Part shown: piece after piece, positions 2,036 through 8,331 of the stretch
Position numbering within the stretch: the first letter of the stretch is position 1
Layout of the letters: the number at the start of each line of letters is the position of its first letter
Origin: Nitrospinota bacterium
GTDB lineage: Bacteria; Nitrospinota; Nitrospinia; JACRGO01
Direction of reading: 5' to 3'
NCBI GenBank assembly: GCA_016212295.1
Contig: JACRGO010000096.1
Location: 1 to 9,405 of the forward strand
DNA length: 9,405 nt
Made by a program: the position numbers and the translations under genes
Notes under the pieces: generated by a model
What the model was told of the DNA's origin: nothing
The model's input: the letters and a program-made list of their open reading frames with translations, nothing else
Databases searched by the model: none

Positions 2036-2145
2036 TACCACTAAGCGCACAAAGCAAAGTAAGGGCACGATGCATCGTGCCCTTACAAAAATATCACAAA
2101 GTTTTTCTTCGTGTTCTTCGTGAATTTTTTGTGCCCTTTGTGGTG
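2036..2145. repeat. Intergenic hairpin repeat with nested palindrome
   Basis: Outer arms 2036-2053 and 2128-2145 are inverted repeats (15 of 18 match; theme ACCAC.AAG.GCACAAA). Inside sits a perfect 28-bp palindrome (2059-2086). A further short direct repeat, CTTCGTG at 2107-2113 with CTTCGTG at 2116-2122, lies nearer the right arm. The whole unit fills the space between rpoZ and the ABC ATPase gene. It contains no reading frame of note. It could shorten or stabilise a dnaK-rpoZ-ABC transcript. Confidence 0.75.
2059..2086. repeat. Perfect 28-bp palindrome, copy 1
   Basis: The bases read the same on both strands over 28 positions, with the core GGGCACGATGCATCGTGCCC at 2063-2082 flanked by GTAA and TTAC. 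The first 24 bases recur exactly at 6239-6262, inside a different outer inverted repeat. Confidence 0.9.
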
Positions 2146-2152
2146 TTAATAG

Positions 2153-2428
2153 TTAATCCGCTTCTTCTTTTATAGGAAGGGCTAGGAGAGCGCTGGCCGA
2201 TTTATCATTGGCGAAAATCTGGATTTTCCCTTGCTTGAGTTCTTCTATGGCCAATTCCATCAGGGTATTCCCTTTTGACTCCACCATTGCAGGAGCCCCC
2301 ATTTCCAGTTGGCGAACCCTGTCGGCTATGATTCTGATCTTAACGAATTTGTTGTTTAACTGCAGATCTCTATATTCCTTCTGTTCCTTTAACGGGTCTT
2401 TCTGCTCGCTTAACTGGGATTTTCCCAT
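2153..2428 (-). CDS. rpoZ: RNA polymerase omega subunit
   Basis: Small assembly subunit of RNA polymerase that chaperones beta'. 91 aa, normal for omega. The segment NNKFVKIRIIADRVRQLEMG (residues 26-45) followed by PAMVESKGNTLMELAIEEL and KQGKI matches the conserved omega core (N+F.LV..AA.RARQL..G....V......K....AL.EI..G.I). The N-terminal 25 residues are highly charged and replace the usual R(I/V)TVEDCL segment, so the match rests on the core. The ATG at 2428 has AAAGGAAA about 6 bases upstream. The gene lies 52 bases downstream of dnaK with no convincing terminator between, suggesting co-transcription from the dnaK promoter. The alternative is an unrelated small protein, which is less likely. 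Confidence 0.8.
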   Translation of the reverse strand: MGKSQLSEQKDPLKEQKEYRDLQLNNKFVKIRIIADRVRQLEMGAPAMVESKGNTLMELAIEELKQGKIQIFANDKSASALLALPIKEEAD

Positions 2429-2480
2429 TGAATTTCCTTTCTGTTGGGGTTTATATTATTACCTTCCCCATTATAAGCTA

Positions 2481-4403
2481 TTATTTGGTTTCTTCAAACT
2501 CCGCGTCCACTACGTCATCTTCCGTTTTTTTCTTTCCCGCGTCTCCAGAAGAGGAAGGGCCATGTGTCCCGGCTCCCGCGCAGCCTCCACCGGCTTGCTG
2601 GGCAGAGGACTTCTTATACATTTCCTCGGCCAGCTTATGCGACGCCTTGGTCAATGTGCCTATGGACGCCTTGATTTTTTCGACGTCCTTGGAGTCCAAT
2701 GCCTTTTTAGCGTCCGCGATGGCTGCCTCAAGGTTCTTGACGTCGGCCTCAGGCAATTTGTCCCTGTTTTCGTTAAGGGTCTTCTCCGTTGTGTAAATCA
2801 GGGAATCCGCCTGGTTTCTTACCTCAACCTCCTCCTTGCGCTTCTTGTCCTCTGCTGAATGCGCCTCGGCGTCCTTGACCATGTTTTTAATTTCATCCTC
2901 TGACAACCCGCTGGAGGCTGTGATGGTGATTTTCTGTTCCTGCCCCGTGCCGAGGTCCTTGGCCGAGACATGCACTATGCCGTTGGCGTCGATATCGAAT
3001 GTGACCTCGATTTGCGGAATTCCCCTTGGGGCAGGCGGGATGCCCACCAGATGAAATTTGCCAAGGGTCTTGTTGTTGGCGGCCATTTCCCGCTCCCCTT
3101 GAAGCACATGGATTTCCACGCTGGTCTGGCTGTCCGCCGCTGTGGAAAACACCTCGCTTTTTTTGGTCGGGATGGTGGTGTTCCTCTCTATGAGCTTGGT
3201 CATCACGCCGCCAAGGGTCTCGATTCCCAAGGAAAGAGGGGTAACGTCAAGGAGCAGTATGTCCTTGACCTCTCCGCCCAGGACCCCGCCCTGAACGGCC
3301 GCGCCAAGGGCCACAACCTCGTCCGGATTAACGCCCTTATGCGGCTCTCTTTTGAAAAGGTCTTTTACCAATTGATGGACCTTTGGTATCCGCGTGGAAC
3401 CGCCCACCAGAACGGCCTCATGGATCTTCGAGGCGTCCAATCCGGCGTCGGACAATGCCTGCTTGCAAGGTCCAAGGCTCCTTTGGATCAAATCGTCAAC
3501 CATCTGCTCGAACTTGGCCCTGGTCAGCCTCATGCTAAGGTGCTTCGGCCCGGAGGAATCAGCGGTTATAAAGGGAAGATTGATAGTGGTCTCCAGCGTG
3601 GTGGAAAGCTCCATCTTGGCCTTTTCAGCCGATTCCTTGAGCCTTTGGAGGGCCATGTTGTCCTGGCCCAAATCAATCCCCTGGTCTTTCTTGAATTCCG
3701 TGATCAACCAGTCGATGATCCGGTGGTCCAGGTTATCGCCGCCCAGATGGGTGTCTCCGTTCGTGGCTTTTACCTCCACCACGTTGTCGCCCACTTCGAG
3801 GATGGATATGTCGAAGGTGCCTCCTCCGAAATCATAAACGGAAATGATTTCATCTTTTTTCTTGTCGAGACCGTACGCCAGGGCGGATGCGGTGGGTTCG
3901 TTGATTATCCGTTTTACATCAAGTCCTGCGATCCGGCCGGCATCCTTGGTTGCCTGTCTCTGGCTGTCGTTGAAATATGCGGGAACGGTTATTACAGCCT
4001 CTGTCACTTTTTCTCCAAGGTAGTCTTCAGCCGCCTTTTTTAGCTTTCTTAGGATCATCGCGGAGATCTCTGGCGGAGAGTATTCCTTGTCCCCGGCATG
4101 GACCTTTACGTCTCCGTTGGAGGCCCTGCTCACTTTATAAGGGACCATCTTCATCTCTTCTGATACTTCATCGAACTTTCTTCCCATGAACCGTTTTATG
4201 GAAAATACGGTGTTTTCAGGATTGGTGATGGCCTGCCGCTTGGCCACCTGTCCGACCAGAATTTCCCCGTCCTTGGTAAAGGCCACTACAGAAGGGGTGG
4301 TGGTGCTGCCTTCCTCATTGATTATTACCTTAGGCTCTCCGCCTTCCATGACAGCCACAACGGAGTTAGTTGTTCCAAGATCGATCCCGATAATTTTTCC
4401 CAT
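2481..4403 (-). CDS. dnaK: Molecular chaperone DnaK (Hsp70)
   Basis: Cytosolic ATP-dependent chaperone that binds exposed hydrophobic segments of unfolded proteins. 640 aa, full length. The nucleotide-binding domain shows IDLGTTNS (7-14), the [13 protein letters not shown] stretch (168-180), [11 protein letters not shown] (190-200) with the conserved Thr196, and [10 protein letters not shown] (333-342). The interdomain linker region [17 protein letters not shown] is at 383-399. The substrate-binding domain is about 400-510, followed by the helical lid and a low-complexity Gly/Ser tail with the usual end [10 protein letters not shown] (629-638). The ATG at 4403 follows a purine-rich AAAGGGCGGGAAG. 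No grpE, dnaJ or hrcA is adjacent; the downstream neighbour is rpoZ. I found no CIRCE operator upstream. Confidence 0.98.
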
Positions 4404-4469
4404 CAGCTTCCCGCCCTTTCTGAATAAAAAATTAGTAATAATTTAAAAATCCAAATTTTTCGCTGTTTT

Positions 4470-4498
4470 TATATAAGATTGAGTTTTGGGAATGTCAA
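4470..4498 (-). promoter_or_regulatory. sigma70-type promoter for dnaK
   Basis: On the minus strand, TTGACA (4498-4493) is followed by a 17-base spacer and TATATA (4475-4470). This is a perfect -35 and a 5-of-6 -10 at ideal spacing. The predicted start is near 4463, giving a leader of about 60 bases before the dnaK ATG. No CIRCE inverted repeat is visible between 4404 and 4593, so heat control, if any, must act through something else. Confidence 0.7.
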
Positions 4499-4520
4499 GA
4501 AAATTTTCCATTGGGACCTC

Positions 4521-4550
4521 TTGCCCTGTTCCAGGTTTATTTGATAGTAT
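4521..4550 (+). promoter_or_regulatory. Possible promoter for the tat genes
   Basis: TTGCCC (4521-4526), an 18-base spacer and TAGTAT (4545-4550) lie 43 bases upstream of the tatA/B start codon. Each box matches the sigma70 consensus at 4 of 6 positions, so this is only a candidate. It would fire divergently from the dnaK promoter about 25 bases away. Confidence 0.35.
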
Positions 4551-4593
4551 TGTTTTGTGCGGCTAAAAATGATTTTTTTATAAGGAAAATGCT

Positions 4594-4836
4594 ATGTTTG
4601 GCATAGGCATGTCTGAATTGATGGTTATCCTGGTAATAGCCTTGATCTTTATCGGCCCCAAAAACCTGCCGGAAATCGCCAAGACCCTTGGCAAGGGCTA
4701 CCTCCAGTTCCAGAGGGCGTTCCGGGACATGAAAGGGACCATAGAGGAAGAAATAGACGAGATAAAGAAAGAGACGGAAATATCCCTGGATAAGGAAATA
4801 TCCCTGGACAAGAAAGAAAAAAAGGAAAAAACGTGA
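4594..4836 (+). CDS. tatA: Sec-independent translocase subunit, TatA/TatB family
   Basis: Single-span membrane subunit of the twin-arginine (Tat) pathway, which exports folded proteins. 80 aa. It has the family layout: a short N-terminus MFGIGMSEL, one hydrophobic helix (about residues 8-22), a FIGPKNLPE hinge, the amphipathic helix with GKGYLQFQRAF, then a highly charged tail. The FIGPK hinge in place of a plain FG, and the IEEEIDEIKKE tail, lean towards TatB-like members. With tatC next door and no second small subunit here, one protein may do both jobs, or the partner lies elsewhere. The ATG at 4594 has AAGGAAA upstream (about 4582-4588). The tail contains an 18-base tandem duplication. 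Confidence 0.92.
   Translation: MFGIGMSELMVILVIALIFIGPKNLPEIAKTLGKGYLQFQRAFRDMKGTIEEEIDEIKKETEISLDKEISLDKKEKKEKT
4776..4811 (+). repeat. 18-bp tandem duplication inside the tatA/B tail
   Basis: Bases 4776-4793 and 4794-4811 match at 17 of 18 positions. The unit encodes the six residues EISLDK twice, in frame, near the C-terminus. This is a recent-looking duplication in a tail that tolerates length change. Confidence 0.85.
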
Positions 4837-4837
4837 T

Positions 4838-4938
4838 ATGGAACACGGATGGCACAGATAAAACGGATTTACGCGGATAAATAAAATACTTTTAAAAATC
4901 CGTGCTGATCCGCGCTTTCCGCGTTATCCGCGTTCCAT
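4838..4938. repeat. Intergenic hairpin repeat between the tat genes
   Basis: Arms 4838-4878 and 4898-4938 are imperfect reverse complements (about 28 of 41), built from repeats of a CGGAT/GCGGAT theme, with a 19-base AT-rich loop. The left arm starts two bases after the tatA/B stop codon. It could act as a processing site or attenuator between the two tat genes. No T-run immediately follows the right arm, so a classical terminator is not supported. Confidence 0.65.
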
Positions 4939-4985
4939 TTCTTTTCCTGAAATGCCCACGATTTTAATACCACCCTCCAGTTTTC

Positions 4986-5795
4986 ATGAAAATGGCTGAA
5001 AAAGAACAAATCTCCAATGCGCAGGAATATAAAGTCCGGCGGATAAAGGAAGATGAAAAAATCCCCTTCACTGCCCACCTTGCGGAGTTAAGATACCGGA
5101 TCATCGCCTCCGTAATCGTGGTCATGCTGATGTTCTGCGCCTGTTATTATTTCATTGATATTTTTATCCACATACTGGAGAGGCCAGTCAAGTCCGCCGT
5201 TCCTGACCTGAAATTGACCTTCCTTGCCCCGGCGGAGGGTTTTTTCGTGAGCATGAAGGTCGCCTTTTTCTCTGGAGTTGTTGTGTCATGGCCGGTGATC
5301 ATTTACCAGGCATGGATGTTCATATCCCCGGGCCTTAAAAAAAACGAACGTAAATACGTCTTCCCGTTCGTTATATTCGGGACCCTGCTTTTTTTCATCG
5401 GGATTTCGTTCTGTTACTTCATTATCCTCCCATTAGGCCTGAAGTTTCTGATAGGTTTCGGCCAGACCTATTGGTTGGCCAATATCGCCGTGGATTATTA
5501 CCTTTCCTTTTGCATGAAGCTTTCCCTGGCCTTCGGATTTGTGTTCGAGCTTCCCCTGGTCCTGGCCCTGCTCGGAAAAATGGAAATAATCACATCCAAG
5601 CAATTGAGAGAGGGACGCAGATACGCTGTTGTCGTGGCCTTTATCATCGCGGCCATACTGACCCCGCCGGATGTGGTCAGCCAATGCCTCATGGCCATTC
5701 CGCTTGTTATTCTTTACGAATTGAGCATTTACGTGGTAAGGGCGATTGAGAGAAAAAACGCGGAGACTGAAACAGCGGCGGAGGAGACCACATGA
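4986..5795 (+). CDS. tatC: Sec-independent protein translocase TatC
   Basis: Multi-span receptor of the Tat system that recognises the twin-arginine signal peptide. 269 aa. The family signatures are clear: PFTAHLAELRYRI (27-39), AEGF (83-86), YQAWMFISPGLKKNERK (107-123, with Glu121 at the place of the signal-binding glutamate of E. coli TatC), FELP (187-190), and TPPDVVSQ plus IPLVILYE (226-245). Six hydrophobic helices can be placed. The N-terminal 25 residues before PFTAHL are longer than usual and very charged. Two ATG codons (4986 and 4992) are possible starts; neither has a good ribosome site, and the sequence just upstream is pyrimidine-rich. It follows tatA/B after a 149-base gap occupied mainly by a hairpin repeat. 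Confidence 0.97.
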   Translation: MKMAEKEQISNAQEYKVRRIKEDEKIPFTAHLAELRYRIIASVIVVMLMFCACYYFIDIFIHILERPVKSAVPDLKLTFLAPAEGFFVSMKVAFFSGVVVSWPVIIYQAWMFISPGLKKNERKYVFPFVIFGTLLFFIGISFCYFIILPLGLKFLIGFGQTYWLANIAVDYYLSFCMKLSLAFGFVFELPLVLALLGKMEIITSKQLREGRRYAVVVAFIIAAILTPPDVVSQCLMAIPLVILYELSIYVVRAIERKNAETETAAEETT

Positions 5796-5806
5796 TACTT
5801 GTTAAA

Positions 5807-5872
5807 TTGAAAATTTAAAATTGTAAATTGTTGGGTTTTCCAAATCTTCAATTTCAAATTAACAATTTTCAA
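5807..5872. repeat. AT-rich intergenic hairpin between tatC and acylphosphatase
   Basis: Arms 5807-5830 and 5849-5872 (theme TTGAAAATT..AA) are reverse complements at 19 of 24 positions, around an 18-base loop. The last base of the right arm is the A of the first possible ATG (5872) of the acylphosphatase gene, so the repeat has taken the place of a normal ribosome-binding region. Confidence 0.6.
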
Positions 5873-5883
5873 TGTTTTTCATT

Positions 5884-6162
5884 ATGAGCCAAACCAGGGT
5901 GCATCTTAAAATCACCGGCTACGTTCAAGGGGTTTTTTATAGGGCCACCACGCGGGAAACCGCCCTCAGGCTTGGATTGAAGGGGTGGGTCAGGAACCGG
6001 AGCGATGGTTCCGTGGAGGCTGTGGTTGAAGGGGATGACTCCTCAGTGGACAGTTTCATGGAATGGTGCAAGAAAGGCCCTCCTGGGGCCACCATCCATG
6101 ACATGGAAGTCAGGCGCGAAGAATGCACTGGAGAATTCACCAGTTTCCAGATCAGGTACTGA
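5884..6162 (+). CDS. acyP: Acylphosphatase
   Basis: Small cytosolic enzyme that hydrolyses the carboxyl-phosphate bond of acyl phosphates. 92 aa from the chosen start, the usual size. The signature GYVQGVFYR (12-20) supplies the phosphate-binding loop and catalytic Arg20. GWVRN (34-38) supplies catalytic Asn38, and GSVEAVVEG is the typical next strand. I chose the ATG at 5884 because it gives the normal MSQTRVHLKITG beginning; the ATG at 5872 would add MFFI and begins inside a repeat arm. Neither has a visible Shine-Dalgarno site. The gene follows tatC after 76-88 bases and converges on the histidine kinase gene. Confidence 0.95.
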   Translation: MSQTRVHLKITGYVQGVFYRATTRETALRLGLKGWVRNRSDGSVEAVVEGDDSSVDSFMEWCKKGPPGATIHDMEVRREECTGEFTSFQIRY

Positions 6163-6209
6163 TCAAGCCTTGCTTCCTTAGTAAAGCTTGCGTACACTTT
6201 TATTTTTTT

Positions 6210-6314
6210 ACCGCGGAGACGCAAAGGCACGGAGAAAGGTAAGGGCACGATGCATCGTGCCCCAACAGCTAAAACATTTTACAAAAAATCTCTGAGCCTC
6301 TGCGCCTCCGCGGT
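6210..6314. repeat. Intergenic hairpin repeat with nested palindrome, second locus
   Basis: Outer arms 6210-6235 and 6289-6314 are reverse complements at 22 of 26 positions (theme ACCGCGGAG.CGCA.AGGC). The right arm ends directly at the stop codon of the kinase gene. Inside, 6239-6262 repeats 24 bases of the palindrome at 2059. The unit occupies the convergent gap between acylphosphatase and the kinase. The strong stem could separate the two transcripts, but no clear T-run is present. Confidence 0.8.
6239..6262. repeat. Palindrome, copy 2
   Basis: This is identical over 24 bases to 2059-2082, including the perfect core GGGCACGATGCATCGTGCCC (6243-6262). Here the right flank is CAAC instead of TTAC, so the outer four pairs are only partly kept. 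Confidence 0.9.
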
Positions 6315-8240: not shown

Positions 8241-8331
8241 ACATCCCCCTTGGTCCCCCTTCCTAAGGGGGAATTAAAACAGAGCCCATTTTAGGGGCGT
8301 TTCCAGCATTCCCCCTTAGCAAGGGGGATGT
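8241..8331. repeat. Inverted repeat element with CCCCCTT / AAGGGGG arms
   Basis: The right arm (8308-8331) is 24 bases. Its reverse complement is found in the left arm as two exact 12-base blocks, 8241-8252 and 8263-8274, separated by ten extra bases (8253-8262). Each arm also folds on itself through CCCCCTT/AAGGGGG. The interior (8275-8307) is short and non-coding. This is a MITE/REP-like element between the divergent kinase and biotin ligase genes. Confidence 0.8.

Follow-up and report, generated by a model that had tools for sequence, protein, structure and literature searches.

REPs are usually regarded as species-specific and as dependent on a resident RAYT. RAYT group 4, which corresponds to TnpAREP subclass 2.4, goes with double-foot REPs, and REPs in frame between HUH and Y have been described for it (Quentin et al. 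2018, PMC6006769). REPs inside palindromes have been reported as A. variabilis GTAG-15, T. roseum GTAG-23 and H. neapolitanus CGTC-1 (Di Nocera et al. 2013, PMC3733652). The IS200/IS605 single-strand transposons combine HUH-tyrosine enzymes related to RAYTs with hairpin ends and a short guide sequence beside the stem. Rickettsial palindromic elements, as they are cited by Di Nocera et al. (PMC3733652), are tolerated in frame within genes and carry a CGTC tag, and that account gives no known transposase for them.

Here we describe a 20-base palindrome that occurs twice in a 9,405-nucleotide stretch of Nitrospinota DNA (the window, that is, the whole stretch analysed) and recurs in the rest of that genome and in many others. 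Like the double-foot REPs of Quentin et al., it has feet at both ends, with matching palindromes that flank the RAYT gene and lie in frame within it, and, like REPs of subclass 2.4, it is patchily distributed over many phyla (PMC6006769). It differs from that subclass in that at least nine phyla have one and the same exact core, that many copies lie nested within hairpins, that the feet in the window read GTAA/TTAC and GTAA/CAAC, and that no cognate RAYT was detected in the genome of the host. As with the GTAG- and CGTC-tagged REPs of Di Nocera et al., REP units lie within larger palindromic repeats; for two of their three species no empty target palindromes turned up, whereas here filled and empty ones occur in one genome (PMC3733652). 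In contrast to IS200/IS605, these sites hold a bare palindrome and no transposase-carrying element with two hairpin ends and, unlike the Rickettsial elements as cited, the in-frame copies are at one transposase-gene region. Since the element type and the nesting have both been published (PMC6006769, PMC3733652), neither is new in kind; what is unusual is the occurrence of one exact sequence in at least nine phyla, the 8 of 25 hosts with no detected group-4 RAYT, and the copies on three viral contigs.

Two nested copies in the window

Exact copies of the palindrome GGGCACGATGCATCGTGCCC lie at 2063-2082 and 6243-6262, as a sequence-only reading of the window had placed them, and 24 bases are common to both (2059-2082 and 6239-6262) when the left flank GTAA is counted. 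At its 3' end copy 2 has CAAC where copy 1 has TTAC. The features are as follows.

2037-2144, no strand assigned: outer hairpin repeat of the ACCACAAAG type, left arm 2037-2054, right arm about 2127-2144
2059-2086, no strand assigned: REP copy 1, perfect 28-bp palindrome GTAAGGGCACGATGCATCGTGCCCTTAC, core 2063-2082, feet GTAA/TTAC
6210-6314, no strand assigned: outer hairpin repeat of the ACCGCGGAG type, arms 6210-6235 and 6289-6314, 85% complementary
6239-6266, no strand assigned: REP copy 2, GTAAGGGCACGATGCATCGTGCCCCAAC, core 6243-6262, feet GTAA/CAAC

The first outer hairpin, with a predicted fold of -43 to -48 kcal/mol, is intergenic, with a gene for an omega-like RNA polymerase subunit (PF01192) on one side and an ABC ATPase gene (PF00005) on the other, and the second lies between convergent genes for an acylphosphatase (PF00708) and a histidine kinase. 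Both copies had been described as centred in an outer inverted repeat; they are indeed inside one, but off centre, at 5 and 41 nt from the outer arms for copy 1 and at 3 and 22 nt for copy 2. The outer arms differ, as was also claimed, but they are not wholly unrelated: an ACCRCRRAG-like pattern is common to ACCACTAAG and ACCGCGGAG.

A dispersed palindrome in the Nitrospinota genome

The element is not confined to these two copies. A search of the Nitrospinota genome (a 3.74 Mb assembly, 90.5% complete) found 27 sites, comprising 14 exact copies of GGGCACGATGCATCGTGCCC and 6, 4 and 3 copies with one, two and three mismatches, respectively. The chance expectation for a fixed 20-mer in 3.74 Mb is about 3e-6, and a reversed control pattern had no match in this genome. 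Nineteen of the 27 copies do not overlap any open reading frame of at least 90 amino acids. The palindrome is thus dispersed, multi-copy and mostly extragenic.

A conserved signal that does not move, for instance a bidirectional terminator or an element that stabilises mRNA or binds a protein, would fit the very stable intergenic hairpins (-43 to -60 kcal/mol), the location of copy 2 between convergent genes and the copies that separate structural genes in the phage-like contig L286 (below). Against it, 59 relatives of the class, the same genus included, have no core that matches exactly or with one mismatch; in the same-genus genome, the orthologous spacer lacks the core and is a diverged spacer with a different hairpin repeat. 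Desulfosporosinus species likewise differ in the presence of the palindrome at the same spacer, and in RAYT genes it is read in frame. A fixed signal of this kind is, in our judgement, very improbable.

Filled and empty outer hairpins

Inspection of the flanks places about 20 of the 27 sites of the Nitrospinota genome in outer hairpin repeats. The same genome holds outer hairpins without the palindrome, about 9 of the ACCGCGGAG type and about 14 of the ACCACAAAG type. Because the same outer hairpins thus occur both filled and empty, the palindrome was added to hairpins that already existed, as the earlier reading had supposed for this genome.

In the ACCGCGGAG family, the loops measure 45-47 nt in filled copies and 20-30 nt in empty copies of the same subfamily, and the linkers (GAGAAA.. 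and AACTGTAAACATTTTAC-like) are alike in both; the other filled copies of this type have 80-88% identity. The net gain, about 19 nt, is smaller than the 28-bp unit, which would mean either that some of the loop was lost or that the loop of the true empty ancestor was shorter. In the ACCACAAAG family about 14 copies are empty and two are filled, the latter with about 27 and 32 nt of net gain. Two more nested contexts were found, one with AACATCGAAC.. (L003/L006/L062) and one at L066. A sister palindrome, GTAAGGGCACGGCGCGCCGTGCCCCTAC, is nested in yet another hairpin of this genome (L152, C103:8787-9222).

Among filled ACCGCGGAG copies the position of the palindrome is constant and the feet are nearly always the same. 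Either a single insertion later amplified with its hairpin or several insertions into that one loop may lie behind these copies. In a tree built from the arm sequences, the filled copies form no cluster (5 changes, against a mean of 6.3 in shuffled data, with 110 of 500 shuffles as low); as far as the arm sequences go, this tree, unresolved for filled and empty copies, gives no support to the idea that the composite arose once.

Nesting in other hosts

Flank complementarity was compared at 111 sites and 765 random intergenic positions. In the Nitrospinota genome, 8 of 27 sites, which are not independent of one another, fall beyond the 3.5% tail of intergenic positions, a figure that underestimates the nesting, since these hairpins are also part of the null. 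The palindrome is also nested in a Spirochaetales genome (G063), where all three sites have p values of 0.017-0.051, and in an Anaerolineae genome (G061), where outer palindromes that differ in sequence (GGGCGCAATAAT, GGGCACGATAAT, GGGTTTGATAAT, CCCCTCCCCATTGATG) enclose between their arms an element of approximately 100 nt that includes the REP. At the G061 loci (L019, L041, L018 and others), the REP is in the middle of the element and there are at least four different flanking palindromes; among exact matches, no copy of the approximately 100-nt element without the REP core was seen. The 34 Atribacterota sites are outside hairpins (best p about 0.06), as are the sites of nearly all other hosts, including nearly all single-copy hosts. 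The targeting of hairpin loops, which the sequence-only reading had suggested, therefore does not hold as a general rule: outside the Nitrospinota genome, most copies lie outside hairpins.

These data bear on the reading in which the REP or its transposase picks the exposed loops of existing hairpins, nesting being target choice and not co-amplification. The palindrome is present in at least four different outer palindromes of the Nitrospinota genome (ACCGCGGAG, ACCACAAAG, AACATCGAAC and the L066 context), filled copies form no clade, and the tail sites of that genome, the three G063 sites and the differing G061 palindromes all point in the same direction, with precedents in Anabaena, Thermomicrobium and Halothiobacillus, whose REPs are within palindromes (PMC3733652). 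On the other side, besides the many sites outside hairpins, the nested copies within each genome are the same in position and linkers, as co-amplification predicts, and loop choice as the cause of the nesting seems unlikely to us. The nested copies of the Nitrospinota genome may instead descend from a few insertions that were multiplied along with the outer hairpin.

Relation to RAYT group 4

The sequence-only reading had tied the palindrome to RAYT/Y1 transposases by analogy, and the tie is borne out by the identical palindrome inside and beside RAYT genes of other genomes. The exact core is held by RAYT genes of G079, G073, G081 and G077 (L211, L212, L213 and L216) and by a gene fragment (L025), in all five of which it is coding sequence just after the catalytic HUH motif. 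The palindrome is also beside the gene in L211 and L212 and only beside it in L210, and in L037 it is in frame within the RAYT gene and on both its sides. In the RAYT genes the exact core is flanked by GTAG..CTAC, a strict pair (the class foot is GT[AG]G with its reverse complement) as against the GTAA..TTAC and GTAA..CAAC of the window; near-identical cores with GTAG..CTAC feet are also found in the Nitrospinota genome (L063, L069).

With the related RAYT of L026 as query, a protein search yielded 23 RAYT loci that could be used. A palindrome is located 26-60 nt after HUH in 17 of the 23 genes, and in about 20 when the whole HUH-WQ interval is considered; upstream of HUH, a palindrome with an arm of at least 10 was found in only 2 of 23. 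The internal palindrome recurs (at least 17 of 20 positions) in the flanks of its own gene at 9 of 22 loci, compared with 22 of 462 swapped pairs (Fisher p about 1.5e-6, the loci being not fully independent). The motifs MPNHIHG, VWQRNYYEHIIR and YIxNNPxxW are recognizable in most rows of the alignment and fit the NH[IFV]H, WQ and YIxNNP of group 4, and a variable insertion between HUH and Y coincides with the palindrome. Scores of RAYT proteins against the NF047646 REP_Tyr_transpos model were 56 and 74 bits, below its cut-off of 80 bits. Taken together, the palindrome is probably a REP of the double-foot type that goes with RAYT group 4 (TnpAREP subclass 2.4). In the RAYT tree, the core-bearing genes are in a supported clade (96/91), mixed with genes that carry other palindromes; the core-bearing RAYTs do not form one group inside this clade, and half of the branches of the tree are unresolved.

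A Pfam Y1_Tnp search of the Nitrospinota genome returned two RAYTs only, both of other groups; its group-4 RAYTs were missed by this model and found by the protein search alone. These group-4 RAYTs, among them a second one with an open frame (L233), carry other palindromes, and no RAYT with the core palindrome was found in this assembly, which is only 90.5% complete. One group-4 RAYT is split across contigs (C186:41422-42037 and C20:1-400; L282, L240), and the break is bordered by matching GTAACAGTTTAGCCC-like inverted ends, which would be consistent with an inserted element. Palindromes of the form GGGGCGTATTGC..CGCCCC are found in and beside the split gene and are almost absent elsewhere in the genome. 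The RAYT palindrome GGGGCGTATTGCCATACGCCCC of this genome was considered as a dispersed family and rejected, being found in only two places at up to one mismatch and in one more at three.

Distribution across phyla and viruses

Exact matches to the 24-mer were present in 44 contig stretches from 25 genomes, where 0.002 would be expected, and those 25 other genomes contain 206 exact 20-mers. The hosts belong to Atribacterota, Chloroflexota, UBP2, Spirochaetota, Desulfobacterota/Deltaproteobacteria, Bacillota (Desulfosporosinus), Calditrichota, Omnitrophota and Edwardsbacteria, so that one exact sequence is common to at least nine phyla. Among the eight of 25 hosts in which a group-4 RAYT was not detected (G060, G068, G069, G071, G074, G076, G082, G083) are G071, which has 40 copies, and G082, an isolate genome. 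Some single-copy hosts may be artefacts of metagenome binning, but this would hardly explain the hosts with many copies.

In the Desulfosporosinus spacer of copy L159, the palindrome is present in G082 and G107 and absent in G083 and G100, which is consistent with gain or loss, the flanks being too diverged to fix the edges of an insertion. Three viral contigs carry the palindrome. One of them, the IMG/VR contig L286, has two exact copies, at 5129 and 10520, between structural-like genes; read from its open reading frames, it appears to be a tailed-phage-like contig and is a possible vehicle between phyla. Protein searches of plasmids and phages gave distant RAYTs only, with 32-39% identity.

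Exchange of cores and arms among hairpin repeats by recombination, gene conversion or replication template switching, with no dedicated transposase, could be read from the variable outer stems and constant inner parts of the G061 elements, from the several hosts without a detected group-4 RAYT and from the interleaving of filled and empty hairpins on the tree. It leaves unexplained both the identical in-frame and adjoining palindromes at RAYT genes and the identical sequence in nine phyla, and we hold it to be quite improbable.

Proposed origin of the nested copies

The explanation that we consider likely is that a double-foot REP of RAYT group 4 entered hairpin loops, that the ACCGCGGAG composite multiplied, and that the copies in the Nitrospinota genome are relics or were mobilised in trans. 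By analogy with published work on E. coli TnpAREP, the group-4 RAYT would presumably recognise the foot and hairpin in single-stranded DNA and help the palindrome to copy into new places. In the Nitrospinota genome, the palindrome was inserted in a few assorted palindromes and in two kinds of ACCRCRRAG hairpin, within the A-rich loop, as is shown by hairpins that exist both with and without it; it would have been moved by the RAYT and have entered as single-stranded DNA. Amplification as a unit probably followed, at least for the ACCGCGGAG composite, as we infer from the identical position and nearly identical feet of its palindrome. Because the cognate RAYT was not found in the assembly, the copies there are probably relics or mobilised in trans. 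Against this explanation count the failure to find that RAYT, the hosts without a detected group-4 RAYT, the window feet that depart from strict GTAG/CTAC, the small net gain in the ACCGCGGAG family and the lack of clustering of filled copies on the arm tree.

A broader proposition, that this is a REP carried in frame in its own transposase gene, which prefers hairpin loops, crosses phyla unchanged, partly on phages, and needs no resident RAYT, strikes us as decidedly doubtful. That one exact palindrome recurs in at least nine phyla, and often where the enzyme is lacking, opens the question of how REPs cross species barriers, and genomes with both filled and empty hairpins offer natural before-and-after pairs for the insertion step.

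Other repeats in the window

Between tatA and tatC, at 4838-4954, lies a repeat, GGAACACGGATGGCACAGATAAAACGGATT.., that recurs in about ten places of the same-genus genome G001, often on both strands; G001, which carries this repeat, lacks the REP core. Positions 1-143 contain a perfect 27-nt inverted repeat, CGGCCACCCCTCTCAAGAGGGGAATTT, with arms at 1-27 and 117-143 and related copies in G001. A further hairpin repeat, TCCCCCTTCCTAAGGGGGAAT, occupies 8254-8328, and its left half is present in about a dozen copies in G001.
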